Assembly (NCBI RefSeq): GCF_014472395.1
Contig: NZ_JACSZW010000003.1
Span: 248,001-312,000, forward strand
DNA from: Pedobacter sp. N36a
GTDB lineage: Bacteria; Bacteroidota; Bacteroidia; Sphingobacteriales; Sphingobacteriaceae
DNA: 64,000 nt
Direction: 5' to 3'
Shown here: positions 4,146-27,002 of the stretch, one piece after another
Layout of the letters: the number at the start of each line of letters is the position of its first letter
Position numbering within the stretch: the first letter of the stretch is position 1
The notes under the pieces: model-generated
What the model saw: the letters and a program-made list of their open reading frames with translations, nothing else
Told to the model about the DNA's origin: nothing
Databases searched by the model: none
Position numbers and translations under genes: made by a program

Positions 4146-7307
<3,162 letters not shown>

Positions 7308-9958: not shown

Positions 9959-10555
9959 ATGATAAATGAAAACTTTCACGATGAACAAAAATGGCTGTCT
10001 TCCTTAAAAGGAGGGGACAGAACTGCTTTTGATGTCATTTACAAGTTTTACGGCAACCGCATTTATTCTCGGGTCTTGTCTATGATCAAGCTAACCGAAG
10101 TGACAGATGAACTGGTACAGGATGTTTTTTTGAAAGTCTGGGAAAAAAGAGAAGATATCAATGAAAGCCTTTCTTTTCAAGGCTGGTTATATCGGATTGC
10201 CGAAAATATCGTACTGGATTATTACCGTAGACTGGCCCTGGACCTGAAGATGCGAAAGCATATGCTAGAGACCTATGCAGAACTCTACAATCAGACTGAA
10301 GACTATATTTTAAATAAGGAACGCAGTCAATTATTAGATAAAGCCCTTCAACAGCTGCCACCTCAGCGTCAGCTTATTTTTAGATTGTGTCGTTTAGAGG
10401 GAAAAAGTTATGAAGAAGCTGCGTCATTGTTAAACATTAGTACGTCAACGGTAAGTAACCAACTGGTTAAGGCGACAAAAAACATCAAAGACTATGTTTT
10501 TTTCAATTCAAAAGAGTTCATCATATTTATGGTTGCCCTTTACCTCAGAAGTTAG
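9959..10555 (+). CDS. ECF RNA polymerase sigma factor (FecI-like, Bacteroidota expansion family)
   Basis: A 198-residue sigma-70 factor of ECF type. Region 2 (about residues 25-90) contains YRIAENIVLDYYRR, and region 4 (about 125-175) contains LPPQRQLIFRLCRLEGKSYEEAASLL with a helix-turn-helix. It is followed 79 bases later by a FecR-type anti-sigma gene and then by SusC and SusD genes, the standard trans-envelope signalling layout in this phylum: the SusC N-terminal STN domain contacts FecR, which frees the sigma factor. Its likely target is the susC promoter downstream. Confidence 0.93.
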   Translation: MINENFHDEQKWLSSLKGGDRTAFDVIYKFYGNRIYSRVLSMIKLTEVTDELVQDVFLKVWEKREDINESLSFQGWLYRIAENIVLDYYRRLALDLKMRKHMLETYAELYNQTEDYILNKERSQLLDKALQQLPPQRQLIFRLCRLEGKSYEEAASLLNISTSTVSNQLVKATKNIKDYVFFNSKEFIIFMVALYLRS

Positions 10556-10634
10556 CCGTGATTCTGTCTTTTAAAGTTTTTTTATTTTATCAGTAGTGTG
10601 TTTTTGGTTTTCGTTCGTATAACGACTGTATAAA

Positions 10635-11819
10635 ATGAAAATGGAACCAAAAATCGACGAGATTTATCAACGCTTTTTAAAAAATGAAGCAACGGCAGCA
10701 GAAATAGAGCAATTATTTTTGTGTTTTGAGGCAGGTACTGATGTCCAATTGCAACAATCAATAGCTGGTTTTATGGCACAAGCTATTGAAGAACCTGCCG
10801 ATACAGAACGGAGGACACACCTTGAAAATCTTCAAATGAAGATAAATGCCAAGCTCGATGCAGCACAGGATGTTCAAGATTCCATTAGGCACCATTACTT
10901 CATTTCTAAACTATTTAGCTTACCAGCTTACCGGATAGCAGCAAGCTTGCTCATCATTGCTTGCTTAAGTTTTTCCGCATATTATTATCTAAATGAAAAG
11001 ACGCAGCAGGAACAGATCAAACCAGGAGGTAATTACGCTACGCTGCTGACAAAAACTGGTCAGGAAATAGACCTTAAAAAATCTTCAAATCAGGTTATCC
11101 AACGCGTTGCTGGAGTTACGATACGTAAAACTGCAGATGGGCAACTGGTATATACCGCATCACCAGTAGCTCAAAATTTTGAACTGGAATGGAATTCCAT
11201 CATTACACCTCTAGGCGGTCGTTATAAGATTGTACTTTCTGATGGTAGTTTAGTGATGTTGAATTCAGGTTCAAAACTAGAGTTTCCGGTTGGCTTTCGC
11301 GGTCAAGAACGCCGTGTTAAATTAATTGGAGAGGCTTACTTTGAGGTGGCTAAAGATGTTTCAAAACCTTTTATCGTGGTTTCCGGCAGGGGAAATGTTG
11401 AAGTTCTTGGAACCAAATTTAACATCAGCAATTATCCTGAAGATGGGGTTATAAAAACAACCTTGTTAGAAGGAAAGGTGAGATTTACGGACAATGTTTT
11501 ACAGAATAAAAAGATTTTGAGGCCTGGAGAACAGCTGAGTTTAAAAGGGGATGATATCCAGCTCTCTGAAGTAAATGCCGCTGATTTTATGGCTTGGAAA
11601 GACGGTAAATTCATTTTTAAAAATGAAGAATTATCAGTCATTATGCATCAGCTCAGCAGATGGTACAATATCGATGTTGATTATAATAGCTTGCCTGAAC
11701 GTCGTTTATACGCAAATATCAGTGCCAACGTTAGCCTCTCCGAAGTATTAAGAATGCTGTCTGTGACCAGCAACCTCAAATTTAATGTGGATGGAAGGAG
11801 GGTTTCTGTGATGAAATAA
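10635..11819 (+). CDS. FecR-type anti-sigma factor
   Basis: A 394-residue inner-membrane regulator. The N-terminal cytoplasmic part (about 1-90) would hold the sigma factor; one membrane helix follows (AYRIAASLLIIACLSFSAYYYL, about 96-117). The periplasmic part has the FecR domain (about 190-285, with TPLGGRYKIVLSDGS and LNSGSKLEFP) and a C-terminal DUF4974 domain (about 320-394, with FKNEELSVIMHQLSRWYN). It pairs with the preceding sigma factor and probably receives the substrate signal from the STN domain of the following SusC protein. A second ATG at 10641 is a possible alternative start. Confidence 0.93.
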   Translation: MKMEPKIDEIYQRFLKNEATAAEIEQLFLCFEAGTDVQLQQSIAGFMAQAIEEPADTERRTHLENLQMKINAKLDAAQDVQDSIRHHYFISKLFSLPAYRIAASLLIIACLSFSAYYYLNEKTQQEQIKPGGNYATLLTKTGQEIDLKKSSNQVIQRVAGVTIRKTADGQLVYTASPVAQNFELEWNSIITPLGGRYKIVLSDGSLVMLNSGSKLEFPVGFRGQERRVKLIGEAYFEVAKDVSKPFIVVSGRGNVEVLGTKFNISNYPEDGVIKTTLLEGKVRFTDNVLQNKKILRPGEQLSLKGDDIQLSEVNAADFMAWKDGKFIFKNEELSVIMHQLSRWYNIDVDYNSLPERRLYANISANVSLSEVLRMLSVTSNLKFNVDGRRVSVMK

Positions 11820-11873
11820 ATTTACCCGATTGCCTTCTACCTCAACTTTTCAAAAAACCTAAACAACAAATTA

Positions 11874-14800
11874 ATGAATATAAAAAAATATGTATCCGGG
11901 CACTCGCATGGTGTCTGCCTAAAATTGCTGCGGATACTTATGGTCCTAATCGTATTTTCCGGAATATACAGTTCGGCAAATGCACAATCCGCAACATACT
12001 CCTTCTCTTTTAAAAACGCAGCCCTCGATAAGGTCATTGAGGAAATTGCTAAACAAAGTGGTTATCAATTTATCTTTGATGCAAGCTACCTTCAGAAATC
12101 AAGTCCAACCACACTTGAAATCAAGTCAGCTGATATTAAAGAGGTGTTAAACACCGTTTTTAAAACACAAAATTTTAGTTACGAAATCTCTGGAAAAACA
12201 ATTATACTCAAACCAGTTCCTGCTAATCTTACTGAAGGGACTTACTACCAGGTAAAAGGACGTGTAATTGACAGCATTGGTGTATCCATACCGGGTGTGG
12301 TTGTCCGTGTAAAAGGACAACGCGAAAGTGTTCAGACCGATACTGATGGTAATTTTATGGTGGCAGTAAAAGAGCCTAACCATACCTTATTGTTTAATTA
12401 TATCGGTTATAAAGAAGAAGAATATGTAGCCGTTCCTTCAGTTGCTTTCACAAGTATTACTATTGTTTTAAAACCCAATACTTCGATGTTACAGGAAGTG
12501 TTTGTCAACGGTTTCCAAAAAATCAGTAAAGAAAGAAGCACAGCTGCCTATACAAATGTTAGTAATGAAGACTTGAACCGGAATCTAAACGTAGACTTGA
12601 TTTCAGCGCTGGAAGGAAAAGTAGCGGGTTTGATCACGATAAAAAATCCTACAGGAAAATCCGCAGATAAGCTGCTGTTAAGAGGGATCAGCACCTATTC
12701 CTCTACAGTTGGTACACAACCATTGTTGGTAATAGACGGTTTGCCTACTGAATATACTTTGGATGAAGTGAATCCATATGATATTGAGTCTGTTACTGTA
12801 CTTAAGGATGCTGCGGCAGCCTCCATTTATGGTGCCCGTTCTGCAAATGGGGTCATCATAATGACCACCAAACAAGCCAAGGGAAAAGGGCTGGAAATTA
12901 ATTTAAATGCAGACTTATTCATTACCGGGAAATCAGATGTGAGTAAGATGCATTATGCGGCTACCAGCGATCTGATCGATTGGGAAACGGCAGTATACAA
13001 AAAAACGCTGAGCGGTTTTTCTAATGTAGAAAGTATGTTCGATGGTTATGGGAAACTAACAAATGGAACCCTGAAATATTACTCTCCATTATATCAGCTG
13101 TATCGTTCACAGGCTTCAGGAGCATTGACTGCGGATCAGGTGAACAGTACTTTGGGGCAATGGCGTCAAAATGACTATATAAAAGATTACAGGGAAAATG
13201 TCTGGCAGAATGAAATCCGGCAGCGTTATAACTTGTCTTTGGGTTCTAGTACCGACAAGAGTAATACTTATTTATCCTTAAACTATGATCAGGGTAAAGG
13301 CCGTGTAATTAACAATATGAATAGGGCCTTCAACCTGAATATGAAGTCTACTTTTAGGGTGAAAAGCTGGTTAAATGCAACGATAGGTTTAAACGGTAAA
13401 TATGCAAATGATGAGACAACAGGTATAGAATATGACAATATGTTTCTACAAGAGCGTTATGCGCGTATTGTAGATGCTGATGGAAATAAAGTGCTGAGCG
13501 ATTATGTCAATCTGAGCGATGGTTTTTCCTCTTCCTCTGCAATTAACGGTGCTGTCATTAATGCTATTGCCGGAAATGCGGCATTTAAGCCATTTAACTT
13601 TAATCTGATAGATGCCCTGGCTGATGGAATTGACAAGCAGAAGTATCTTAACCTTCGTGCATTTTCTAATATAGAAGCTAAGCTCTATAAAGGGCTTACT
13701 TTTAATACTCAGGTTCAATACGAAACTTCAAGTACCAAACTTGATCGATATCATGCAGTTGATGGCTACAGAATGCGTTATATGTCCAATATGTTTATTG
13801 ATAAATCAATGACCAGCCATTTGGATGCCGGCGGACGTTATTACCAATTAGATAAATCGAGCAATAATTATACTTTCCGGAATCAGCTGAATTTTAACAG
13901 AGGCTTTGGTAAAAATGAAAATGAACATTATGTCGCCGCAATAGCTGGTTTTGAGATGAGACAAACGTTCAGCCCGGTAAGTAATGAGTCCCTGCACTTT
14001 GGTTATGATCCTCAAACTATTCAGTTCGTAAATCTTGATGATGATGTTCTGGTGGATGGTATTGCAAGTTATTTTAATGGAAACAGGACTATCGGTCGAC
14101 TGGGTACCAGTCAGATGGAAAGGAGACACCGTTATACTTCTCGCTACGCCAATATGAGCTACACTTTCCAAGGAAAATACAACGCAACTGCGAGTGTACG
14201 GATGGATAATTCTGACTTATTTGGTGTAGACTATAAAGATAAAAACAGGCCATTCTGGTCGGCAGGTTTGGCTTGGAATGCAAGTAGTGAAGAGTTTTTG
14301 AAAAAGCTGAGTTGGTTAAATACCCTGAAACTGAGGGCAACCTATGGAACAAATGGTAACGTAGATCAGAGTACCACTTCATTTATCGTAGCCAATAGAA
14401 AGAAAGATGCACTTTTGACTAATTTGAACTATTGGAACATTACCACCATGCCGAATCCAACGCTAAGGTGGGAAACAACTGCAACTACTAACTTCGGTAT
14501 TGATTATGCCGTATTTGGCAATCGTCTTCGCGGCAGCATCGACGTTTATAATCGTAAAAGTACAGATCTGCTGAATACAACGAAGTTGGACCCAACGGTT
14601 GGAACATTGGCACAGGTGGTAAATAGTGGTTCCTTAAGAAACCGTGGAATTGAATTTAGTGCATCAGGAGATTGGTTTAAAACCAAAGACTGGACCTTTA
14701 CTACAAATGTCACCTTTGCAATGAATAAAAATGAAGTGGTCAAAGTGAATAATCCTCAGACATCCATTGGTGTGTATGTAACTGCTCCAAATACATTTTT

Positions 14801-15473
14801 CATAGCTGGCGACGCGTTTAATAGTTTATATGCTTACAAATACGGAGGTATGGTTAATGGATATCCCTATGTTCTGGATGAGAATGGAAACCCTAATGTA
14901 ACATTTGATGCTTCAGGCAGCCCTACCGCTGTAAGACAGATTAACAACCTGAATGCATTGGTAAAGGTGGGACAGCTGGATCCAAAATATTCAGGATCAG
15001 TATCTCAGCGCATAAGTTATCAGGGTTTTGAATTAAGTACGATGTTCATTTTTTCAGGGGGCAATAAATTACGTAAAGACGTGAGTGCATTAGATGCATC
15101 AGATCTTAAGGATATTGATGTTGCAAACCGCTGGACGGAAACTTCAGACCTTCCGCGTTTATTCGTAGACTATGCCACGAACCAAAATAGCAATATGCAG
15201 ACGTTATCTACACTTTGGAAATATTCCGATAAACAGATTCTGGATGCGAGCTATGTTAAATTGAGAAATATTGCACTTTCCTATAATCTTCCACGTACAG
15301 TGAGCAGGAAGTTAGGTGTAGCATCTTTTAGGATAACGGGACAGGTTAACAATTTATGGTATTGGAGTGCAGCTGGTGATGATATCGATCCAGAGGCCTA
15401 TTCACTGAATTCCGGTGTAAGATCATTTGCGATTCCAAAATCATTCTTACTCGGTCTAAACGTAACTTTTTAA
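11874..15473 (+). CDS. SusC/RagA-type TonB-dependent outer membrane transporter with STN domain
   Basis: A 1199-residue SusC-like transporter. In order: signal peptide (cut near SSANAQ, residue 38), STN signalling domain (about 50-105), carboxypeptidase-regulatory-like domain (YQVKGRVIDSIGVSIPGV, about 125-210), plug domain (about 215-335, with LLVIDGLP and IYGARSANGVIIMTTK) and the large beta-barrel ending in a terminal aromatic residue (NVTF). The STN domain is what links such transporters to a FecR/sigma pair, exactly as found upstream. With the SusD lipoprotein it would import substrate by TonB energy. The substrate is not shown by sequence; the downstream metalloprotease points to peptides rather than glycans. 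Confidence 0.95.
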   Translation: MNIKKYVSGHSHGVCLKLLRILMVLIVFSGIYSSANAQSATYSFSFKNAALDKVIEEIAKQSGYQFIFDASYLQKSSPTTLEIKSADIKEVLNTVFKTQNFSYEISGKTIILKPVPANLTEGTYYQVKGRVIDSIGVSIPGVVVRVKGQRESVQTDTDGNFMVAVKEPNHTLLFNYIGYKEEEYVAVPSVAFTSITIVLKPNTSMLQEVFVNGFQKISKERSTAAYTNVSNEDLNRNLNVDLISALEGKVAGLITIKNPTGKSADKLLLRGISTYSSTVGTQPLLVIDGLPTEYTLDEVNPYDIESVTVLKDAAAASIYGARSANGVIIMTTKQAKGKGLEINLNADLFITGKSDVSKMHYAATSDLIDWETAVYKKTLSGFSNVESMFDGYGKLTNGTLKYYSPLYQLYRSQASGALTADQVNSTLGQWRQNDYIKDYRENVWQNEIRQRYNLSLGSSTDKSNTYLSLNYDQGKGRVINNMNRAFNLNMKSTFRVKSWLNATIGLNGKYANDETTGIEYDNMFLQERYARIVDADGNKVLSDYVNLSDGFSSSSAINGAVINAIAGNAAFKPFNFNLIDALADGIDKQKYLNLRAFSNIEAKLYKGLTFNTQVQYETSSTKLDRYHAVDGYRMRYMSNMFIDKSMTSHLDAGGRYYQLDKSSNNYTFRNQLNFNRGFGKNENEHYVAAIAGFEMRQTFSPVSNESLHFGYDPQTIQFVNLDDDVLVDGIASYFNGNRTIGRLGTSQMERRHRYTSRYANMSYTFQGKYNATASVRMDNSDLFGVDYKDKNRPFWSAGLAWNASSEEFLKKLSWLNTLKLRATYGTNGNVDQSTTSFIVANRKKDALLTNLNYWNITTMPNPTLRWETTATTNFGIDYAVFGNRLRGSIDVYNRKSTDLLNTTKLDPTVGTLAQVVNSGSLRNRGIEFSASGDWFKTKDWTFTTNVTFAMNKNEVVKVNNPQTSIGVYVTAPNTFFIAGDAFNSLYAYKYGGMVNGYPYVLDENGNPNVTFDASGSPTAVRQINNLNALVKVGQLDPKYSGSVSQRISYQGFELSTMFIFSGGNKLRKDVSALDASDLKDIDVANRWTETSDLPRLFVDYATNQNSNMQTLSTLWKYSDKQILDASYVKLRNIALSYNLPRTVSRKLGVASFRITGQVNNLWYWSAAGDDIDPEAYSLNSGVRSFAIPKSFLLGLNVTF

Positions 15474-15482
15474 ACATAAATC

Positions 15483-16907
15483 ATGAAATTATATATAAAA
15501 ATACTCTTGTTTTTGCCGGTATTACTATCAGTTTCCTGTAAGAAATATATAGAGATTACCCCTCGTGGATCAGCTGTGGTAGAAACAGCCCAGCAATTCT
15601 ACGAAATGGTTTCATTACCTAACCGCGGTTATGCCATAAACAATTTCCAGTACCTGGTTGACGACCAGTGGATGAAGGAAAGTGACGTGATCGGAAAGGC
15701 TAAAAACCTGAATATCGTTAATTTTACTTTTGATGAAACTGAAAACCGGGTAAACCTGCTTTCCAGTTCTTCCTTTTACAATCAGGCTTATGCCTACATC
15801 AACCGTTGGAATATGATCATCAGCCTGGTAGATGGTTCTACCGGTACGGATGCTACAAAAATGATCGCCAAATCTGAAGCAAAGGTGCATCGTGCCTTTG
15901 ATTATTTTATGTTGATTAATACCTATGCTAAAGCTTATGATCCGGCTACGGCTGCTACAGACGGAGGGATCTGTATCATGGATAAATTTAATCTGGAAGC
16001 AAAGCCGATAAAATCTACCGTAAAGGATGCGTATGATTTTATTCAAAAAGACCTGGATGAAGCCATTCCAAATCTACAGGAAAAGCCCTTGGATGAGAAC
16101 CATCCTTCGCTGGCATTCGCATGGGCCCTGAAAGCTAAAGTGCATTTGTTTAAAAGAGAATTTGCCGAGGCTAAAACAGCAGCATTGAAGTCTTTATCCT
16201 ACAAGAGCGATATTTTTGACCTGGTAGATTACACAGCAAAAGGAGGGCCTAATGTGCTGCCGGTTGTTGCTCCAAATAACCCAGAGGTATTAAATTATGC
16301 TTACATGACTGGGTATACAGAGATGAACTTTGCTTATGTGAATGTCATCAGTCCGGAATTAAGAACGCTGTTTGGTAACAATGATGCGCGTTTTAACTTG
16401 TTTTTTACTACGGTAAATGCTTCGTTTCTGGACGCAGGTTCAGGTACTGCGTATTTTAATATAGGATACAAAAAGTTCTTTTACCCTACGGTAGGAATGA
16501 AAACTACGGAAGTTTACCTGATGCTGGCTGAACTTTATGCCCGTGAAAATAATCGATCAGAGTCTATTGCTGCCTTAAATAAGATTCGGGTAAAGCGAAT
16601 CACTTCAGGCACCATCAACTTTGCTGTTCCTGCTACAGTGAAAGAAACCATGGATCTGGTCATTGCTGAGCGTCGTAGGGAATTACTGTTTGGTGTCAAC
16701 AGGTTTTTCGATTTGAAAAGATTTAACCTGGAACCGGAGTATGCAAAAACTATTGTGCGTGTATTTCCGATTGTCAATACCACAGAACCAAAGAAGACCT
16801 ATACCTTGAAACCGAACTCCAGGTTGTATATCATTCCTTTTGCTCAGGATGTACTGAAACAAAATCCTGGATTAAGGTTAAATACAGACGAAATCATTCC
16901 TTTTTAA
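15483..16907 (+). CDS. SusD/RagB-type substrate-binding lipoprotein
   Basis: A 474-residue SusD-family protein. The signal peptide ends in the lipobox LSVSC with Cys19. The N-terminal SusD-like domain (about 20-220) begins with KYIEITPRGSAVVET and includes AKVHRAFDYFMLINTYAKAYDP; the RagB/SusD domain follows, with YLMLAELYARENN and AERRRELLFGVNRFFDLKRFN near the end, typical of the family. It starts nine bases after the SusC stop. It should cap the SusC barrel at the cell surface and bind the imported substrate. Confidence 0.94.
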   Translation: MKLYIKILLFLPVLLSVSCKKYIEITPRGSAVVETAQQFYEMVSLPNRGYAINNFQYLVDDQWMKESDVIGKAKNLNIVNFTFDETENRVNLLSSSSFYNQAYAYINRWNMIISLVDGSTGTDATKMIAKSEAKVHRAFDYFMLINTYAKAYDPATAATDGGICIMDKFNLEAKPIKSTVKDAYDFIQKDLDEAIPNLQEKPLDENHPSLAFAWALKAKVHLFKREFAEAKTAALKSLSYKSDIFDLVDYTAKGGPNVLPVVAPNNPEVLNYAYMTGYTEMNFAYVNVISPELRTLFGNNDARFNLFFTTVNASFLDAGSGTAYFNIGYKKFFYPTVGMKTTEVYLMLAELYARENNRSESIAALNKIRVKRITSGTINFAVPATVKETMDLVIAERRRELLFGVNRFFDLKRFNLEPEYAKTIVRVFPIVNTTEPKKTYTLKPNSRLYIIPFAQDVLKQNPGLRLNTDEIIPF

Positions 16908-16925
16908 ATTTACAAAATCAGACAA

Positions 16926-19370
16926 ATGAAGTATGCTTTAAGCGTTATATGCTGCATGATATCCCTAACTGGATATGCGCAGCATACAACTGATAAAAAG
17001 ACAGACAGTAGCCATGTTAAGGCTACTGTATCTTATGAAAAATTAATTCCAAAAACCGCGTCGAGTAAACAAGGATTATTTGACGTAAAGTGCACTGATG
17101 ATAAATGGTACTTTGAAATTCCCGACAGTCTTTTGAACCGGTATATTCTTGCGGTTACCCGTTATGTGGCTATGCCGCAGGGAGCAGGTAGTTTTGGCGG
17201 TGAGAAAGCAAATGAACAAACGGTTTACTTTGAAAAAGGCAATGCCAATAAAATTTTTTTGCGTGCGGTAGTGTACCGACAGGACGTGAAAGATGAGAAA
17301 CAACAAATTTCTAAGGCCGTAACAGCTTCGCAGGTAAATCCGATTGTTGCAGCATTTGATATCAAATCTAAAAACCCGGTAACAGGTAATTCTGTGATCG
17401 AGGTTACTGATTTATTTCGTAAAGAAAGTACGGTATTGTCCATTTCTCCACAAGAAAAAACAGAGAAAAAACTGGGAAGCCTGGCAGATGACAGGTCATT
17501 TATAGAATCTATTCATACCTATCCCATCAATATCGAAATCAAAACAACAAAAACCTACAGTACTTCCGGCGTAGCCACCATCATGGCCGGAGCTTTAACT
17601 GGAGCCATCACACTTCAGTTAAATACCTCACTGGTATTGCTGCCTAAAGTACCGATGAGGAAGCGTATTTCTGATGAACGCGTCGGTTACTTCGCCAATA
17701 AGTACACCCTGTTTGATGAAAACAAGCAGGCGGCACAACCCCTGTATTTTGTGCAGCGTTACCGTCTGGAGCCAAAGGATAAAGACATCGCCAGATACAA
17801 AAAAGGAGCCCTCGTAGAACCAAAAAAACAGATCGTTTATTACATTGATCCCGCAACACCAAAAAAATGGCGTAAATACCTGATTGCAGGGGTCAACGAT
17901 TGGCAGAAAGCCTTTGAACAGGCCGGTTTTAAAAATGCTATTGTCGCAAAGGAATGGCCTGAAGCAGACACGACAATGAGCCTGGAAGATGCACGCTATT
18001 CTGTAATCCGTTATTACGCTTCTGAAACTCCAAATGCATATGGTCCCCGGATTAGTGATCCGCGGAGTGGTGAAATCATCGAAAGTCATGTGGGCTGGTA
18101 CCATAATGTGATGAAACTGGTACACAACTGGTATATGATTCAAGCCGGCCCCTTAGATCCCCGTGCGCGTAAAATGGAGTTTGAGGAGGAACTGATGGGT
18201 GAATTGATTCGTTTTGTATCCTCACACGAAATCGGACATACACTTGGTTTGAGGCACAATATGGGCGCCAGTAGTCAGACGCCAGTGGAGAAGCTGAGAG
18301 ACAAAAAATGGGTAGAAGCCAATGGACATACCGTGTCCATAATGGATTATGCACGCTTTAACTATGTTGCTCAGCCTGAAGACCACATTGGCCCAGCCGG
18401 AATCTATCCAAGAATAGGGATATATGATAAATGGGCGATCCAATGGGGTTACAAATATTTGTCTGGTGCTAAAGACGAGTTCGAAGAGCAGGTTGTTTTA
18501 AACAGAATGACCATCGATAGCCTGACTAAAAATCCGAAGCTATGGTTCGGTGGTGAGGGTAAAGGTGAAGACCCAAGAAGTCAGGCTGAAGACCTCAGTG
18601 ACAATAACATCGCAGCAAGTGAATATGGGATCAAAAACCTGCAGCGTGTGGTACCAAATCTGGTGAGCTGGACTTATGAGCCTGGAGCGGTATACGACAA
18701 CCTGAAGACCATGCATAAGGCTGTAATTTCCCAGTATTCACGTTATTTATATCATGTGATGAAGAATATAGGAAGCCGATATATTACACAGCGAAGTACT
18801 GATGAAAAGGGAATTGTCTATGCTGAGGTTCCAAAAGAGAGAGTGAAAAGTGTAATCGGATACCTGGACAGACAAGTATTTGAAGCGGCTTTATGGATGT
18901 ACCCAAAAGAAATTGCTGAACTTATCGATATCAAACCGGTAAATGAAATCATGGATCAGCAAAATCAGATGCTGAATATGCTGCTAAGTTCCGGACTGAT
19001 CTTTAACTTGGATCAGCGTGCCGCTACCTCTGCTGATCCATATACGGTACAGGAATACCTGAATGATCTGGAAAAAGCAGTCTGGAAAAATCTTTCTGCC
19101 GATCCTGTGCGCTCAAGCTATAGACGATCTCTGCAAAGAAGCTATCTGGAGAAGTTGAACAGTCTGATCAATCCAAAAGACGTCGCTGAGGGTAAGATGA
19201 TGTCGAACGCCCAGCGCAGTGATGTGCGTATTGCTGCCATTGCCCATGCTAAACATCTCCGTACAACGATAGCGGCTATGCCAGCAAGCGGAGCTTTAAA
19301 CCAGGAGCATCAAATAGATATGTTATCTGAAATAGATAAAATCATCGCAAGAACGAAGAAGGATAATTGA
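16926..19370 (+). CDS. Secreted zinc metalloprotease (DUF5118/DUF5117/DUF4953, metzincin-like)
   Basis: An 814-residue exported protease of the DUF4953 group. A signal peptide (MKYALSVICCMISLTGYAQ) is followed by DUF5118- and DUF5117-like regions (about 35-300) and the catalytic part. The zinc site is HEIGHTLGLRH at residues 434-444, which fits HExxHxxGxxH with ligands His434, His438, His444 and catalytic Glu435, and SIMDY about 30 residues on looks like the methionine turn of metzincins. It starts 18 bases after the SusD stop, so it belongs to the same operon. Proteins of this group often accompany SusC/SusD pairs; substrate and location (periplasm or surface) are unproven. Confidence 0.9.
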   Translation: MKYALSVICCMISLTGYAQHTTDKKTDSSHVKATVSYEKLIPKTASSKQGLFDVKCTDDKWYFEIPDSLLNRYILAVTRYVAMPQGAGSFGGEKANEQTVYFEKGNANKIFLRAVVYRQDVKDEKQQISKAVTASQVNPIVAAFDIKSKNPVTGNSVIEVTDLFRKESTVLSISPQEKTEKKLGSLADDRSFIESIHTYPINIEIKTTKTYSTSGVATIMAGALTGAITLQLNTSLVLLPKVPMRKRISDERVGYFANKYTLFDENKQAAQPLYFVQRYRLEPKDKDIARYKKGALVEPKKQIVYYIDPATPKKWRKYLIAGVNDWQKAFEQAGFKNAIVAKEWPEADTTMSLEDARYSVIRYYASETPNAYGPRISDPRSGEIIESHVGWYHNVMKLVHNWYMIQAGPLDPRARKMEFEEELMGELIRFVSSHEIGHTLGLRHNMGASSQTPVEKLRDKKWVEANGHTVSIMDYARFNYVAQPEDHIGPAGIYPRIGIYDKWAIQWGYKYLSGAKDEFEEQVVLNRMTIDSLTKNPKLWFGGEGKGEDPRSQAEDLSDNNIAASEYGIKNLQRVVPNLVSWTYEPGAVYDNLKTMHKAVISQYSRYLYHVMKNIGSRYITQRSTDEKGIVYAEVPKERVKSVIGYLDRQVFEAALWMYPKEIAELIDIKPVNEIMDQQNQMLNMLLSSGLIFNLDQRAATSADPYTVQEYLNDLEKAVWKNLSADPVRSSYRRSLQRSYLEKLNSLINPKDVAEGKMMSNAQRSDVRIAAIAHAKHLRTTIAAMPASGALNQEHQIDMLSEIDKIIARTKKDN

Positions 19371-19416
19371 TTATAAGATGATGGTAAATTCATCAACAAT
19401 AAATAAAAAGATACAT

Positions 19417-19935
19417 ATGAAAAGATTGACGAACGTTCTTATTACGTTATTGGCTGTGATCAGCTTTCAGGGAAAAGCACAGGATACAGTACTAAATGCT
19501 GCAGCTCAAAAACAGGAAGCCGCTAAAATTGCAGTGGTTGAAAGCTACCTTGGCATCAGCAATAGTTTAATCCTGTCCGACTCCCTTGAAACTGCAAAAA
19601 ATGCGACAGCTTTTTTAAGGAGCCTGGAAAAGTTCAGGTTTAAAAAATTGACTTTAGAGGAAATGAATGCGGGAACTACCACAAGGGCTGAAATCCGTGT
19701 ATTGGCTGCAAAAATCGCAGAAACAACGAATATAAACACGCAGCGTAAAATATTTTTAGAGCTCTCTACAAAGATGTGGGGAATTGCTAAAAATGTACAG
19801 CCCTCTGGCTTGCCACTGTACCAGCAGGTGTGTCCTATGACAGGAGCTACATGGATCAGTAAAGATCAGGAGATTAAAAATCCTTATTATCCTAAGAATA
19901 TGCTGACTTGTGGCGAGATCAAGGAGCGGATATAA
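19417..19935 (+). CDS. DUF3347 domain protein, likely exported
   Basis: A 172-residue protein with a signal peptide (MKRLTNVLITLLAVISFQGKA). The body matches DUF3347: a helical N-terminal part, then CPMTGATWISKDQEI, NPYYPKNM and TCGEIKE at the C-terminus, a pattern otherwise found at the ends of CusB-like and copper-related proteins. The CPM and TCG cysteines could bind metal or form a disulfide. The ATG at 19417 is preferred; an upstream in-frame ATG at 19378 would add 13 polar residues and hide the signal peptide. It closes the sigma/FecR/SusCD/protease operon. A metal-handling or protease-partner role is inference. Confidence 0.8.
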   Translation: MKRLTNVLITLLAVISFQGKAQDTVLNAAAQKQEAAKIAVVESYLGISNSLILSDSLETAKNATAFLRSLEKFRFKKLTLEEMNAGTTTRAEIRVLAAKIAETTNINTQRKIFLELSTKMWGIAKNVQPSGLPLYQQVCPMTGATWISKDQEIKNPYYPKNMLTCGEIKERI

Positions 19936-20038
19936 GACAGTTCATTTACATAAACACAACCGATTGAAGGTTCATCTTTTAAAAGGATTTACTCAGATCA
20001 GTTTCTTAGCTAAAAAGAGCTCTTAAAGAGGGTGCAAA

Positions 20039-20191
20039 GTGGTCGGGAAGAGACCTGATGTTCTTTAGATGTAGGAGGGGGTTCGGTTAGGGTTTGGATA
20101 GCAGAGACTAAGCAACCCTACGCGAACCCTACGCGAACCCCCTCCGAACCCTATTATAAGGCAGGTCTCTTCCCGAACACTACCCGACCAC
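20039..20191. repeat. Imperfect inverted repeat made of 11-bp GGGTTCG-type units
   Basis: The left arm starts GTGGTCGGGAAGAGACCTG (20039) and the right arm, read on the minus strand from 20191, starts GTGGTCGGG, then an extra TAGTGTTCGGG, then AAGAGACCTG. Both arms go on to an AGGGGGTTCG block and end in AGGGTT at the loop; the right arm again has an extra 11-base unit (CGCGTAGGGTT, present twice in tandem). So the arms match except for whole 11-bp unit differences. The single-stranded product would fold into one long hairpin with a loop of about 20 bases. No transposase or target-site duplication was found. It may be a mobile intergenic repeat of the REP/BIME kind or a regulatory hairpin. 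Confidence 0.8.
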
Positions 20192-20290
20192 TACCACAGA
20201 AGTAAAGTAAAATTGCTCCAACCAATTTATGGCCGTTTATTATCGGATCATAGCCATTTCTTCTATCCCTCTGGCAGGATCTGAAAACCG

Positions 20291-22152: not shown

Positions 22153-22321
22153 AGGGTTACTGCTATTTAATTTCAAGTAGAAAGTACTTTACGACAGCTA
22201 TTTGCTGAGTCCGAATGAACGGAATTCTATGTTCATTATTATCCCCCTTTGTATTTTTATGGCTTAATACTTGTTAATGTGAATCTTAATATATAAAATT
22301 GCTATAAAATTGCGGGAATAT

Positions 22322-23683
22322 ATGAGGAGAAACATCTACTTTTTGGGATTTATAGCCACAATACTTCTAGCCAGCTGCGGAAAAGGCGGTCAGGGGGAGT
22401 TAGTAGGGGTATACAATAAGAAGTTTAAAAACAACCGGGTGCCTTTAGGTATGGTATACGTACCACCAGGAAGGACCTTGATTGGGATGTCTGATGAAGA
22501 CATTAACAACTCTCAGACCTCTCCGAGTCGTATGACTTCCTTTAGCGCGTTCTTTATGGACCAGACAGAGATTTCCAATGCAGAATACCGACAGTTCGTG
22601 AACTGGGTAAGGGATTCTGTGGCGGTCACCACCTTGGGCCCAACTGTTGCCGCTAATTTCTATAAACCTGTTCCTGCAAATGCCGGCCCAACTTCTGCCT
22701 CTGATCGTTACATCGACTGGAAAAAAGTGGGCAATGGTTCCCTGCTGTGGAGCCGCAAAAATGGTGGCTTTGGCGCCCGATTAACCGATATGTATTATAC
22801 CGGTGCGGATGCTTTACCCGGCAGAACCGAAATTGATGTGAGAAAGCTGAGATACGCCTACAGCTATAAAAGTACTGATCTGGAAGCCGAAGGCCGTAAA
22901 GATCCAAGTAAAAAAAGACAGGATTTCATCGTGACTTATACCGATCTTCCTGATCCAGATAAATCAAACCAGTTTCCTTCTGTAAATGTGTACCCAGATA
23001 CCCTGGTTTGGAAAGTAGATTATTCTTATTCCCAGAATGATCCGATGGTGAAAACTTATTTTAACCACCCTTCTTATGATGATTATCCGGTAGTAGGGGT
23101 GAGCTGGGAACAGGCCACTGCATTTTGCGTATGGCGTACCCGCTTCTATGAATCTGTGGCTGTAGCGAGAAAACAACCGCTGAATTCAAGACCAGAATAC
23201 CAGCTGCCTAGTGATGCACAATTCGAATATGCAGCCAGAGGTGGTAATGTGAAAACAAAATACCCTTGGGGCGGTCCTTATATCCGCAATACCAAAGGAT
23301 GTATGCAGGCTAACTTTAAAGTTGGACGAGGAAATTATTCAGATGACGGCGGTTTATATACTGTAAACGTGAAATCTTATTTCCCGAACGATTATGGCTT
23401 GTACAATATGGCTGGAAACGTTGCCGAATGGACGGTTACTGCCTATAATCAGTCGGCAGCTCCTTTACTGCTCGATTTTAACCCAAACTTTACTTACGTT
23501 GCAAAAACGACAGACAGCAAATACCTGAAACGCAAAGTGGTAAGAGGAGGCTCCTGGAAAGATATCGGATTTTTCCTTCAAAACTCCGTAGGTACCTATG
23601 AATATCAGGATCAGGCTAGATCTTACATCGGATTCAGGTGTATTTCCGCCTATCCGGGATCTGACATCCGAAACAGAAATTAA
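22322..23683 (+). CDS. gldK: Type IX secretion/gliding lipoprotein GldK
   Basis: A 453-residue lipoprotein with lipobox LLASC (Cys19) and an SUMF1/FGE-like domain from about residue 45. It is the first gene of gldKLMN, the core of the type IX secretion system, where GldK (PorK) forms a periplasmic ring with GldN attached to the outer membrane. The catalytic cysteine pair of formylglycine-generating enzyme is absent: the equivalent stretch is VVRGGSWKDIGFFLQ, so it is structural, not enzymatic. The ATG at 22322 is chosen over a TTG four codons upstream because it begins the signal peptide (MRRNIYFLGF). Confidence 0.94.
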   Translation: MRRNIYFLGFIATILLASCGKGGQGELVGVYNKKFKNNRVPLGMVYVPPGRTLIGMSDEDINNSQTSPSRMTSFSAFFMDQTEISNAEYRQFVNWVRDSVAVTTLGPTVAANFYKPVPANAGPTSASDRYIDWKKVGNGSLLWSRKNGGFGARLTDMYYTGADALPGRTEIDVRKLRYAYSYKSTDLEAEGRKDPSKKRQDFIVTYTDLPDPDKSNQFPSVNVYPDTLVWKVDYSYSQNDPMVKTYFNHPSYDDYPVVGVSWEQATAFCVWRTRFYESVAVARKQPLNSRPEYQLPSDAQFEYAARGGNVKTKYPWGGPYIRNTKGCMQANFKVGRGNYSDDGGLYTVNVKSYFPNDYGLYNMAGNVAEWTVTAYNQSAAPLLLDFNPNFTYVAKTTDSKYLKRKVVRGGSWKDIGFFLQNSVGTYEYQDQARSYIGFRCISAYPGSDIRNRN

Positions 23684-23715
23684 CATCTTAAACATATACC
23701 AATCATCCTACAAAA

Positions 23716-24525
23716 ATGGTAGCAAAACGTAAATTCGATAAAATGCACCTGGCTATATCGCTAGGCGCCAGCGTTGTTATTCTTGGCGCGCTTTTTAAAA
23801 TTCTTCACCTTGGAGGCGTATGGGGTAATTACATGATCGGAATTGGATTAGGAGTAGAAGCAATCTTATTTGCTTTGACCGGATTCATCCAGCCAGAACC
23901 AGAACCAGCCTGGGAAAGAGTATACCCTGAATTAAGAGATGATTATGATGGTGAATTGCCGAAAGCTTCTTCCAGAGCAACCGCACAGCCAGCCGCATTC
24001 TCTTCTACTGCAGCATTGGATAAAATGCTGGCAGATGCAAAAGTAGGTCCTGAATTGATCGAAAGCCTTGGCAATGGCCTGCGTACATTTGGTGATAAAG
24101 TTGCGGCGATCTCTAATGTAGCGGACGCTTCTACTGCAACGACAGAATTTGCAGGAAAAATTAAAACAGCTTCAGCAAGCTTTGACTCGCTGAACGGTGC
24201 TTTCTCTAAAGCAACTACTCAATTGGTGGAAATCGGCGAAAGTGCCGGTGCTTCTAAATCATACCACGAACAAGTGAATGCCCTGGCTAAAAATCTGGCT
24301 TCCCTGAACGCCGTTTATGAATTGGAATTGCAGGATTCCAGTGCCCACCTAAAATCAATGAACAAATTCTATCAAAACATCGCCTTGACGATGGATAACT
24401 TTAGTGGTTCTATGGAAGACTCTAAACAATTTAAGGACGAAGTTGGGAAACTGGCTAAGAACTTAGGTTCTTTAAATGCAATCTATGGTAACATGTTATC
24501 GGCAATGAATCAGCCACGTGTTTAA
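23716..24525 (+). CDS. gldL: Type IX secretion motor protein GldL
   Basis: A 269-residue inner-membrane protein. Two membrane helices lie at the N-terminus (about 11-30 LAISLGASVVILGALFKILH and 36-58), the second carrying a buried Glu in GLGVEAILFALTG, which fits the proton-channel role proposed for GldL. The rest is a cytoplasmic helical tail with repeat-like segments NALAKNLASLNAVYE (about 195-209) and GKLAKNLGSLNAIYG (about 243-257). With GldM it forms the proton-driven rotary motor that powers type IX secretion. Spacing to gldK is 32 bases and to gldM 45 bases. Confidence 0.95.
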   Translation: MVAKRKFDKMHLAISLGASVVILGALFKILHLGGVWGNYMIGIGLGVEAILFALTGFIQPEPEPAWERVYPELRDDYDGELPKASSRATAQPAAFSSTAALDKMLADAKVGPELIESLGNGLRTFGDKVAAISNVADASTATTEFAGKIKTASASFDSLNGAFSKATTQLVEIGESAGASKSYHEQVNALAKNLASLNAVYELELQDSSAHLKSMNKFYQNIALTMDNFSGSMEDSKQFKDEVGKLAKNLGSLNAIYGNMLSAMNQPRV

Positions 24526-24570
24526 TCCGTGTTTAATTAGTGATCATTTCATCATCAGACTGAATTAAAA

Positions 24571-26109
24571 ATGGCCGGAGGAAAACAAACAACGAGGCAG
24601 AAGATGATCAATATCATGTATTTGGTATTGTTAGCTATGCTTGCCTTGAACGTATCAGATACGATATTGAATGCTTTTAAGAACATCAATGACAGTTTGC
24701 AGACGTCAAAAAATAACGTCAGCAGCAGCATCGACCAATTGTTCGCAGCATTTCAAAATACAAAGCTTAAAGAAGAGCCTGCAAGGGCACAGCCCATTTG
24801 GGAGAATGCCAACAAAGCAAAAACTTATGCGAATGAACTGAACGACTACATTCAGAAATTGAAAGATCAGTTTGTAGTAGAAGGTAAAGGAATTGATCCG
24901 GAAACTGGTGATTTAACCGAGCGTTCGAATCTGGACATTGCTCAGGGCATCATGATCAACCAGAAAAAGGGTGATGAACTGCAAAAGAAAATCAATGAAA
25001 CCCGTGAAAAGTTAATCTCTTTATTACCAGAGAAAGACCGTGCACACGTGACTTTCTCATTGGAAGCTAAAAATGCAGAGAAAGCGATTAATGGAAAGAA
25101 AAACTGGGCCGACATTAACTTCGGTGAGGGTACGCCGTTAACAGCGGCCAACACGATTCTGACTAAAATACAGTCGGATGTGAAAAATGCCGAAGCGGAA
25201 GTAGTGAAGAAATTATTCGGAGACATGGATAAGGCATTGGTCAATTTAGATCAGTTTGATGCGGTTGCAGTAGCACCAAGTTCTTATGTGATCCAGGGAC
25301 AGCCCTATACTGCACAGGTGTTTTTAACTGCCAGCGATTCCAGATCTACTCCTGAAATTTCCGTAAACTCCAGCCCACTGTCTGTAAAAGATGGTAAAGG
25401 TACTTATACCGGTAACACGGGTAGTGTAGGTGTTTTCAAATGGTCTGGTACAATCCGTGTAAAACAAACAGATGGTAAAGTCGTAGAATATAGAACTCCT
25501 GAGCAATCTTATCAGGTAGCAAAACCTTCTGCAACGGTATCTCCTGATAAAATGAACGTGATTTATGCGGGAATCCCCAATCCGTTTTCTGTTTCTGCAG
25601 CAGGCTTTCCACTGGAAAGTGTAAAGGCAAACATGGACGGTGGTACGATCTCTGGCGGCAATGGTAAGTTTACAGTGAATGTAAGCGGCGCCCAGGTCGG
25701 AAAAGAATTGAACATCAACGTTTCAGCAAGCACAGGCGGTAAAACTTTAAACCTGGGATCTCAGAAATTCCGAGTGAAAGCATTGCCAACACCTAAAGCT
25801 TTTGTAAAAGGAAAATCTGGTGGTAGTGTAGACCTGGAGTGGCTGGAAAATGCTGGCCTGCTGGATACACAGCTGGATGATTTCGTTTTCGATGTAAAAT
25901 ATAAAGTGATCAGATTTGCGGCTACATTTATCAACCCGAGATCTGATGCGGTAACGATACAAAATAGTGGTGCAGGATTTAGTGGTCAGGTAAAAGGAGC
26001 TTTAAATTCCATTAAACCAGGAGCTACAGTAGTGTTTAAAGACATTGTGTGTGAAGGCCCAGATGGTCGTCAGCGCGTGTTGGATGGCATCACATTTAGT
26101 GCAAAATAG
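24571..26109 (+). CDS. gldM: Type IX secretion motor protein GldM
   Basis: A 512-residue protein with a short N-terminal cytoplasmic segment and one membrane helix (MINIMYLVLLAMLALNVSDTIL, about 12-33), then a helical domain (about 35-225) and beta-rich periplasmic domains to the end. The start MAGGKQTTRQKMINIMYLVLLAM is highly typical. GldM (PorM) spans the periplasm as a dimer and transmits torque from the GldL motor to the GldK/GldN ring. Eight bases separate its stop from the gldN start. Confidence 0.95.
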   Translation: MAGGKQTTRQKMINIMYLVLLAMLALNVSDTILNAFKNINDSLQTSKNNVSSSIDQLFAAFQNTKLKEEPARAQPIWENANKAKTYANELNDYIQKLKDQFVVEGKGIDPETGDLTERSNLDIAQGIMINQKKGDELQKKINETREKLISLLPEKDRAHVTFSLEAKNAEKAINGKKNWADINFGEGTPLTAANTILTKIQSDVKNAEAEVVKKLFGDMDKALVNLDQFDAVAVAPSSYVIQGQPYTAQVFLTASDSRSTPEISVNSSPLSVKDGKGTYTGNTGSVGVFKWSGTIRVKQTDGKVVEYRTPEQSYQVAKPSATVSPDKMNVIYAGIPNPFSVSAAGFPLESVKANMDGGTISGGNGKFTVNVSGAQVGKELNINVSASTGGKTLNLGSQKFRVKALPTPKAFVKGKSGGSVDLEWLENAGLLDTQLDDFVFDVKYKVIRFAATFINPRSDAVTIQNSGAGFSGQVKGALNSIKPGATVVFKDIVCEGPDGRQRVLDGITFSAK

Positions 26110-26117
26110 GATTGATT

Positions 26118-27002
26118 ATGAAGAACATTGTAAGTATTTCGGCATTTTTGTTATTCGGATTGACCGTATCCGCACAGGTGATAAAAAGCCCGGATACAGC
26201 AAAGGCGACAGTAAAGAAAGCTAAGATAAAAACACCGCCTAAAGATGGCTTTTCGGCAAGAAGAGACGTGGATAGTGCCGTGATGGTTCCCTTTGCCGAT
26301 GTCAGAGAAGAGGATGTATTTTACTCCAAAAGAATCTGGCGCGAGATCGATTTAAGAGATACTATTAACTCGGTATTGAAAGCAGAAAATGCAAGATTGA
26401 TCGATGTGCTGTTAGAGGCCATCACCAATGAGGAATTGACGGCTTATTCTCCGAAAGATACCACTGCCGGGAAATTGCTGGAAGACAATGATTCTTTCAA
26501 AATTGCATTGACTACACAGCAGGCTCTGCAAAATATGCGCGGCGTTACAGAAGGGACACCTGATGCAACGACCGGTAAAATTGCAGAACCAAGTTTGAAA
26601 AGATTCAGACCTGACGAATTTCTGAAATACCGAATTAAAGAAGATTGGATTTTAGATACAAAACGTTCAGTTTTTGAACCTAGAATTGTGGGTATTGCCC
26701 CAATGAAAATGGTAGAAGGCAACTGGCAGCCAGTTTTCTGGATCTATTATGATGATGTGAGAGAATTGCTGACTAAGAAAAAACTAATGAACCCTGGAAA
26801 TGATGCTTCGGTATTGACTTTCGATGATTTCTTTGTGAGGCGTTTATTCTCTAGTTATGTAGTGAAAGAAACGAACCCTGGAAATAAAACGATTGTGGAT
26901 ATGCTGGGCTTAACCGACATCAAAGATCCAAGAAAACTATACGAATCGGAAAAGATTAAGAAATCTATTGCAGACTTTGAACAGAGTCTTTGGGAATATT
27001 AA
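26118..27002 (+). CDS. gldN: Type IX secretion ring protein GldN
   Basis: A 294-residue exported protein with a signal peptide (MKNIVSISAFLLFGLTVSAQ). The body has the GldN/PorN pattern, including DVDSAVMVPFADVREEDVFY, VFWIYYDDVREL and DDFFVRRLFSSYVVKE. It partners GldK in the periplasmic ring of the type IX secretion system. The ATG at 26118 is preferred over a TTG two codons upstream. It is the last gene of the gldKLMN unit, closed by a strong terminator shared with the convergent uvrC operon. Confidence 0.95.
   Translation: MKNIVSISAFLLFGLTVSAQVIKSPDTAKATVKKAKIKTPPKDGFSARRDVDSAVMVPFADVREEDVFYSKRIWREIDLRDTINSVLKAENARLIDVLLEAITNEELTAYSPKDTTAGKLLEDNDSFKIALTTQQALQNMRGVTEGTPDATTGKIAEPSLKRFRPDEFLKYRIKEDWILDTKRSVFEPRIVGIAPMKMVEGNWQPVFWIYYDDVRELLTKKKLMNPGNDASVLTFDDFFVRRLFSSYVVKETNPGNKTIVDMLGLTDIKDPRKLYESEKIKKSIADFEQSLWEY

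Follow-up and report, generated by a model that had tools for sequence, protein, structure and literature searches.

A conserved SusCD–metzincin–DUF3347 operon in Pedobacter sp. N36a with a possible role in uptake of metal-bearing peptides or proteins

The window analysed here is a stretch of 64,000 nucleotides from Pedobacter sp. N36a (contig NZ_JACSZW010000003.1, positions 248,001 to 312,000). It contains six consecutive genes encoding a FecI-like sigma factor, a FecR-type anti-sigma factor, a SusC transporter, a SusD lipoprotein, a metzincin-type metalloprotease (zincin) and a DUF3347 protein. This operon is a real evolutionary unit, and the same gene set recurs across genera far beyond chance. 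An earlier annotation of the window from its letters (the original prediction) proposed plain peptide acquisition, an account that leaves out DUF3347 as a family of copper gene clusters. Since the family of the sixth protein usually lies beside copper genes, what is imported may be a peptide or protein that carries metal, and not plain food. We favour, with a rough probability of 0.48, a TonB-driven, surface-signalling SusCD system that would take up a peptide or protein ligand, probably bearing copper or another soft metal, followed by cleavage of the ligand and capture of the metal.

The gene-order search in other Bacteroidota genomes that the original prediction suggested was carried out. 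Across 148 genomes, the 16 best zincin matches (the window included), together with two split zincins assigned to the clade by 70-72% identity, coincided in position, at 18 places, with the 18 best DUF3347 matches; these DUF3347 matches stood well apart from the next one (128.8 versus 86 bits). SusC, SusD, zincin and DUF3347 were present in all 17 other loci mapped in the genus, and sigma-FecR genes lay upstream in 16; the remaining locus (L049; L numbers denote loci) is a second copy in its genome. A SusD search of 399 genomes of the window's family found the clade in 49, at identities of at least 60%, with the next match at 36%. All 33 further family loci carried both zincin and DUF3347, giving 51 of 51 loci (window, 17 and 33) in which both genes accompany this SusCD clade. 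A set started from SusD and reaching Sphingobacteriaceae, Flavobacteriaceae (with Capnocytophaga) and Chitinophagaceae comprised 37 loci at identities of at least 52%, with the zincin in 36 and DUF3347 in 29. Because 14 of these 37 repeat a SusD identical to one in another genome, the non-redundant total for the three families is 51 + 23 = 74 loci; the zincin is present in 73 and DUF3347 in 66. Thirteen Prevotella-type loci stand outside this total, and 16 loci with SusD identity of 33% or less (L128-L143) were dropped. The scan of named genomes was peptide-pattern based and not exhaustive; its closest SusD was from Pedobacter sp. MC2016-24 (92%), records of the window's own genome having possibly been omitted. 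The original prediction had made its case depend on inheritance of the protease and DUF3347 with this SusCD clade, and such co-conservation is what these counts reveal.

The genomic context of DUF3347 outside the clade points to copper. A multicopper oxidase relative scoring above 900 bits was found within the fetched flanks (up to 6 kb) of 16 of 20 non-clade DUF3347 loci, and DUF3347 is thus no odd extra of the operon. These loci were picked by hand among the higher matches, one per genome and with context unseen, some rows being skipped; 17 come from the window's genus and the DUF3347 proteins of L177 and L179 are identical, so the 20 are no independent random sample. In the window's own genome (5.25 Mb, with five PF16313 zincins and three DUF3347 genes), one other DUF3347 gene adjoins genes for an HMBD-CusB protein and an outer-membrane efflux protein.

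Copper genes also lie directly downstream of 10 of the 66 DUF3347-bearing operons. In eight Flavobacterium and Mucilaginibacter loci the genes that follow encode a further DUF3347 protein together with a multicopper oxidase; in two Algibacter loci they encode an HYC_CC_PP protein and a permease of the CusA/CzcA family. These genes were identified by family search in L125, L097 and L094 and elsewhere by similarity to those; the L125 oxidase scores below the NCBIfam CopA cut-off (381 versus 479 bits), and some downstream DUF3347 proteins may have an HMA-like N-terminus, for which the L125 matches are weak and below cut-off. None of 28 control zincin loci, which were picked by hand, had such genes downstream (Fisher p = 0.030), making copper adjacency a statistically modest signal. 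A resistance-nodulation-division (RND) permease of weak CusA resemblance (135-139 bits), present in four control loci, was not counted as a copper gene. Two Prevotella-type loci (L112, 18031-21414; L117, 18086-21445) encode a CusA-like RND permease scoring 1317-1321 bits, which lies some 3 kb past the zincin on the opposite strand and was likewise left uncounted.

Alignment of 31 DUF3347 proteins (26 of 30 operon copies and five from the downstream copper genes) showed that C139, W146, C165 and G166 are invariant, and that P140, M141 and M162 are conserved in at least 90%. Numbering follows a start at ATG 19417, which gives a cleaner signal sequence than the annotated start at 19378; the latter is therefore probably too early. 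Operon copies carry the signature CPM...W.S...NPYYPKNMLxCG with few exceptions. The DUF3347 proteins of multicopper oxidase-CusAB clusters share the CPM...ML/M-xCG motif, but those aligned read NPYYG where operon copies mostly read NPYYPKN. The window protein is predicted to form a helical bundle that has strands at its C-terminus, and its C-terminal part holds the CPM...MLTCG motif. With the predicted model, Foldseek returned nothing at E ≤ 0.001, and a sequence search of solved structures returned nothing at E ≤ 1; the relatives proposed by VIA-align (best Z 9.9) were helical bundles of a generic kind, among them receptors and cytochrome b562 fusions, and were set aside. In the DUF3347 tree, operon copies form one side of a branch with support 98/91 and copper-cluster copies the other, and the idea that the downstream copper-gene DUF3347 is a recent duplicate of the operon copy was not borne out. 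A SusD plus zincin tree (quick method, midpoint root) requires three changes for DUF3347, read as one gain and two losses. DUF3347 was thus apparently recruited into the operon once, as far as these trees indicate.

The SusD lid of the clade carries the loop TDGG(I/V)C-x-M. Among 49 SusD proteins (the window and 48 of 50 clade loci from named genomes), C164 is conserved in 42, M166 in 47 and H207 in all; 36 non-clade SusD proteins have a gap (29) or proline (7) at column 164. The C-x-M loop is a hint, and only a hint, of relevance to metal. As it is common to Prevotella and Chitinophagaceae, the loop predates DUF3347 on this tree.

Regulation by STN, FecR and sigma factor, in which the signal passes from the SusC STN domain through FecR to the sigma factor, and TonB-driven import through SusC are general roles of these families. 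Using a profile built from SusC proteins of the genus, we found both STN and sigma/FecR in 78 of 98 SusC rows (65 non-redundant; the 98 include 14 second records of the same genome), neither in 17, and disagreement in three. Twelve of the 17 are informative (10 Prevotella-type loci, L087 and L126); in the other five, SusC is cut by a contig end (L093, L096, L221) or the upstream sequence is short (L110, L115). The discordant rows are L049, with STN only, and L055 and L220, in which the SusC open reading frame (ORF) is shortened, the remainder in L220 lying in a second ORF. Together with co-conservation, this joint variation agrees with the self-regulated SusCD-protease unit of the original prediction, although no other member is as loosely co-inherited as the sigma gene (r = 0.43-0.67 against the other five).

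The window zincin has the active site HEIGHTLGLRH followed by SIMDY, and across 26 aligned sequences, the window included, neither SIMDY nor the HExxHxxGxxH residues vary. In its predicted structure (mean predicted local distance difference test score, pLDDT, 82), residues 253-513 weakly resemble the catalytic domain of karilysin (Z 7.5, root-mean-square deviation 3.8 over 148 residues). Foldseek with the whole model gave zero matches at E ≤ 0.001, and the sequence search of solved structures gave EcxA alone (E = 0.08). Structural neighbours of the full-length zincin were for the most part helical repeats, karilysin ranking lower, and were set aside. A simple pattern test, as distinct from a signal-peptide predictor, placed XAQ at the end of the signal in 41 of 47 clade zincins, with none of the 47 lipobox-like, and in 29 of the 30 DUF3347 copies from operons, one of which (L102) is lipobox-like. 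A glutamine at +1 fits the 'Q-rule' of Bacteroidota signal-peptidase-I substrates. Genes of gldKLMN type (FGE-sulfatase, GldL, GldM and GldN families) lie near downstream of the operon at 22310-27002, and the host cell therefore probably has type 9 secretion; the window zincin has no match to a type-9 sorting-domain family at E ≤ 0.001. Given the XAQ-type signal, the lack of a lipobox and the lack of a sorting-domain match, a periplasmic zincin is the likelier case, and zincin and DUF3347 probably act there after import. Action of the protease outside the cell is therefore not supported, and the order of events would be the opposite of that in the original prediction, in which the protease makes peptides that SusCD then imports.

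In the mechanism we favour, SusD would capture the ligand and SusC would import it with TonB energy, while the STN domain would report occupancy to FecR, freeing the sigma factor and raising expression of the operon. The metzincin would then cut the imported polypeptide in the periplasm, and DUF3347 may bind the metal, whether freed or carried in. In a narrower version that we hold to be rather unlikely, the SusCD pair would be dedicated to copper, taken from copper-loaded peptides or proteins; the SusD lid would carry a C-x-M/His site, a periplasmic metzincin would destroy the carrier, and DUF3347 would be the metal acceptor feeding cuproenzymes or the copper genes that sometimes lie next to the operon.

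Several observations weigh against the metal-bearing ligand. DUF3347 is missing from L087, L126 and six Chitinophagaceae loci, and from all 13 Prevotella-type loci (SusD 45-49%). No copper genes were found near the 17 other loci of the genus or among the window's tested neighbours, and the other non-clade DUF3347 gene of the window genome adjoins citrate synthase. The p value becomes 0.16 when the control locus L194, fetched with prior knowledge of a nearby DUF3347 match, is counted (1/29), and since related loci are not independent, we estimate the effective number at perhaps four events. The motifs are not absolute: CPM is lost in the operon DUF3347 of L100 and reads CPK in L049, C164 is replaced by valine or isoleucine in four Mucilaginibacter loci that carry copper genes and by alanine in three Prevotella SusD proteins, and H207 occurs in 3 of 36 non-clade SusD proteins. 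Finally, no cysteine is conserved in at least 85% of 48 SusC proteins, and there is thus no conserved OprC-like CxxxM-HxM site.

In L194 (G025), a non-clade SusCD-zincin operon is followed two genes on by genes for a Cys-rich protein, an HMA-like DUF3347 protein and a multicopper oxidase, so that other zincin operons may share the link to copper.

The alternative that survives best is plain peptide nutrition, in which oligopeptides taken up through SusCD would be trimmed by the zincin, and DUF3347 would play no part in metal handling beyond, at most, mopping up incidental metal. It is favoured by the near-constant protease, by the genus copies that lack nearby copper genes, and by solved structures: RagA and BT_2264 are among the relatives of the window SusC, although entries labelled just 'SusC homolog' score higher, and RagB is among the weak matches of SusD. 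The best SusC matches were PDB 8YPT and 8YPU, the former being also the best SusD match. We consider this alternative unlikely, given the copper context of DUF3347 elsewhere, its conserved Cys/Met motif and the copper genes directly downstream of some operons.

DUF3347 might also be a dedicated partner of the zincin, such as a folding helper, inhibitor or metal loader, its copper context elsewhere reflecting a separate use of the domain. The two genes are spaced by -26 to +58 bp in 78 of 79 loci (14 being second records of the same SusD sequence), with an exact 4 bp overlap in 19, and in L053 their order is swapped yet they remain adjacent. Over 28 loci the distance correlation of DUF3347 is highest with the zincin (r = 0.93, versus 0.90 with SusD), values that shared descent alone would raise. 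As signs of co-inheritance, the spacing and the correlations count for the favoured reading as well. Yet zincins of the same clade in Chitinophagaceae and Prevotella-type loci do without DUF3347, and just one of 29 non-clade zincin loci has it, as part of a copper cluster that lies two genes off. This makes a dedicated partnership improbable.

Still less probable is a defence against copper stress, with the operon sensing and degrading copper-damaged or copper-loaded polypeptides of the surface or periplasm and uptake being secondary. Copper-efflux and multicopper oxidase genes downstream of some loci would suit it, but SusCD-TonB systems import and do not export, and a family search found no copper-responsive regulator within the operon, the encoded regulators being FecI/FecR. 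Least likely of all is a glycan system with hydrolases elsewhere: SusC structures scoring above RagA include 5t3r and 8aa4, which we take to be levan and dextran importers, and a GH2 (glycoside hydrolase family 2) beta-galactosidase lies 2.6 kb upstream at 4146-7307, but it sits behind three opposite-strand ORFs, the constant enzyme is a protease, and, as the original prediction held, the six operon proteins have zero matches to glycoside hydrolase or carbohydrate-active enzyme families in Pfam and NCBIfam (the flanks of relatives had no systematic glycoside hydrolase search).

Among known systems, RagAB of Porphyromonas gingivalis and BT_2263/BT_2264 are likewise SusC/SusD pairs; neither is known to have a built-in metzincin or DUF3347. 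A Sus-like system of Capnocytophaga canimorsus (Manfredi 2015) reportedly captures iron; it too would serve metal uptake, but of iron and not copper. RagAB is described in PMC11817032 as a peptide SusCD whose imported peptides have already been cut by gingipains. OprC and CrtA/BfrG mediate TonB-driven copper import across the outer membrane, according to PMC11213822 and PMC12914433, but they are not SusCD pairs, and the CxxxM-HxM site given for OprC in the former has no conserved counterpart in SusC of the window clade. Other SusCD-DUF4953 loci of the genus (L057, L062, L063, L194-L203) have the same sigma-FecR-SusC-SusD-zincin layout but a different SusCD clade and a zincin about 45-53% identical to that of the window; in L062 a TlpA-like thioredoxin gene follows the zincin, where the window operon has DUF3347. 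The combination of SusCD, metzincin and FecI/FecR is thus known and common in the genus, and the label 'undescribed' can hold only for the full combination; the operon is a conserved variant of it with a copper-associated sixth gene. No description of a copper SusCD or of this operon was found in titles and abstracts among the matches listed, subscription papers being mostly outside the search. A full-text literature search found DUF3347 mentioned in one paper and the names DUF4953, DUF5117 and DUF5118 in none, three papers having just the word 'Met-zincin'.

The six ORFs lie on one strand as predicted (Table 1), with gaps of 79, 54, 9, 18 and 7 bp in order, and Pfam and NCBIfam agree with the families first assigned. 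SusC scores 556 bits against TIGR04056 (cut-off 368), SusD exceeds the cut-offs of SusD_RagB and SusD-like_3, and DUF3347 scores 52.5 bits against PF11827 (curated cut-off 25.5).

Table 1 The six genes of the operon, in window coordinates
Feature	Position	Strand	Family match
Extracytoplasmic function (ECF) sigma factor, Bacteroidota FecI-like	9959..10555	+	TIGR02985 (NCBIfam)
FecR-type anti-sigma factor	10635..11819	+	PF04773 + PF16344 (FecR + FecR_C)
SusC TonB-dependent transporter: N-terminal STN, carboxypeptidase-like domain, plug, barrel	11874..15473	+	TIGR04056/TIGR04057
SusD lid lipoprotein; clade-specific loop GG(I/V)C-x-M (C164, M166) and H207	15483..16907	+	
Metzincin-type metalloprotease, N-terminal signal sequence, HExxHxxGxxH + SIMDY	16926..19370	+	PF17162 + PF17148 + PF16313 (DUF5118-DUF5117-DUF4953)
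DUF3347 protein	19378..19935 (probable true start 19417)	+	PF11827 (Pfam)

Past the operon lies a long, imperfect inverted repeat (20030-20185) with direct CCTACGCGAA repeats inside, which might act as a terminator or represent a repeat element; as DNA, 20010-20200 folds at -45.8 kcal/mol versus -21.9 in shuffles (z -7.1). Consensus scans for promoter-like sites (19 versus 28.3 in shuffles) and terminator-like sites (13 versus 8.4, standard deviation 2.9) were not used. A defence-system role was rejected, the models giving one weak sigma-factor match (20 bits) and none for the three other proteins tested.

Related loci vary around this layout. Prevotella-type loci, where the contig permits, combine SusC and SusD with the zincin and usually with an additional protein of about 260 residues; no sigma/FecR genes adjoin them. 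The zincin is present in 10 of the 13, the other three (L110, L115, L121) being on short or cut contigs. In L111-L120 this additional protein, of about 255-272 residues, is encoded between SusD and the zincin (the L113 copy has no Pfam match), and in L111 and L119 an ExbB-like gene comes next after the set. Several Prevotella-type zincins have Cys-containing N-termini. In L126 (5933-11392, Capnocytophaga sputigena) the SusCD pair lacks zincin, sigma, FecR and STN and adjoins a gene for a lipoprotein-like protein of 226 residues bearing the stretch HRCDIAVGAPL. In L087 a small Cys-bearing protein is encoded upstream of SusC; it matches no family above cut-off. The clade zincin of L054 (5441-7893) and L055 (5328-7374) is split into two overlapping ORFs, a broken gene or a sequencing error. 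Thiol-redox genes recur near these proteases: in L056 (7591-12426) a paralogous zincin is preceded by DsbD_N and DsbD-TM/thioredoxin genes, L065 (7557-12384) has similar gene sizes and order, and L062 has the thioredoxin gene described above.

SusCD pairs are usually seen as importers of sugars or peptides, and a version with a copper-associated domain would suggest acquisition of metal from peptides or proteins. Such an operon would also give a way into the function of DUF3347 and of the DUF4953/DUF5117/DUF5118 zincins.

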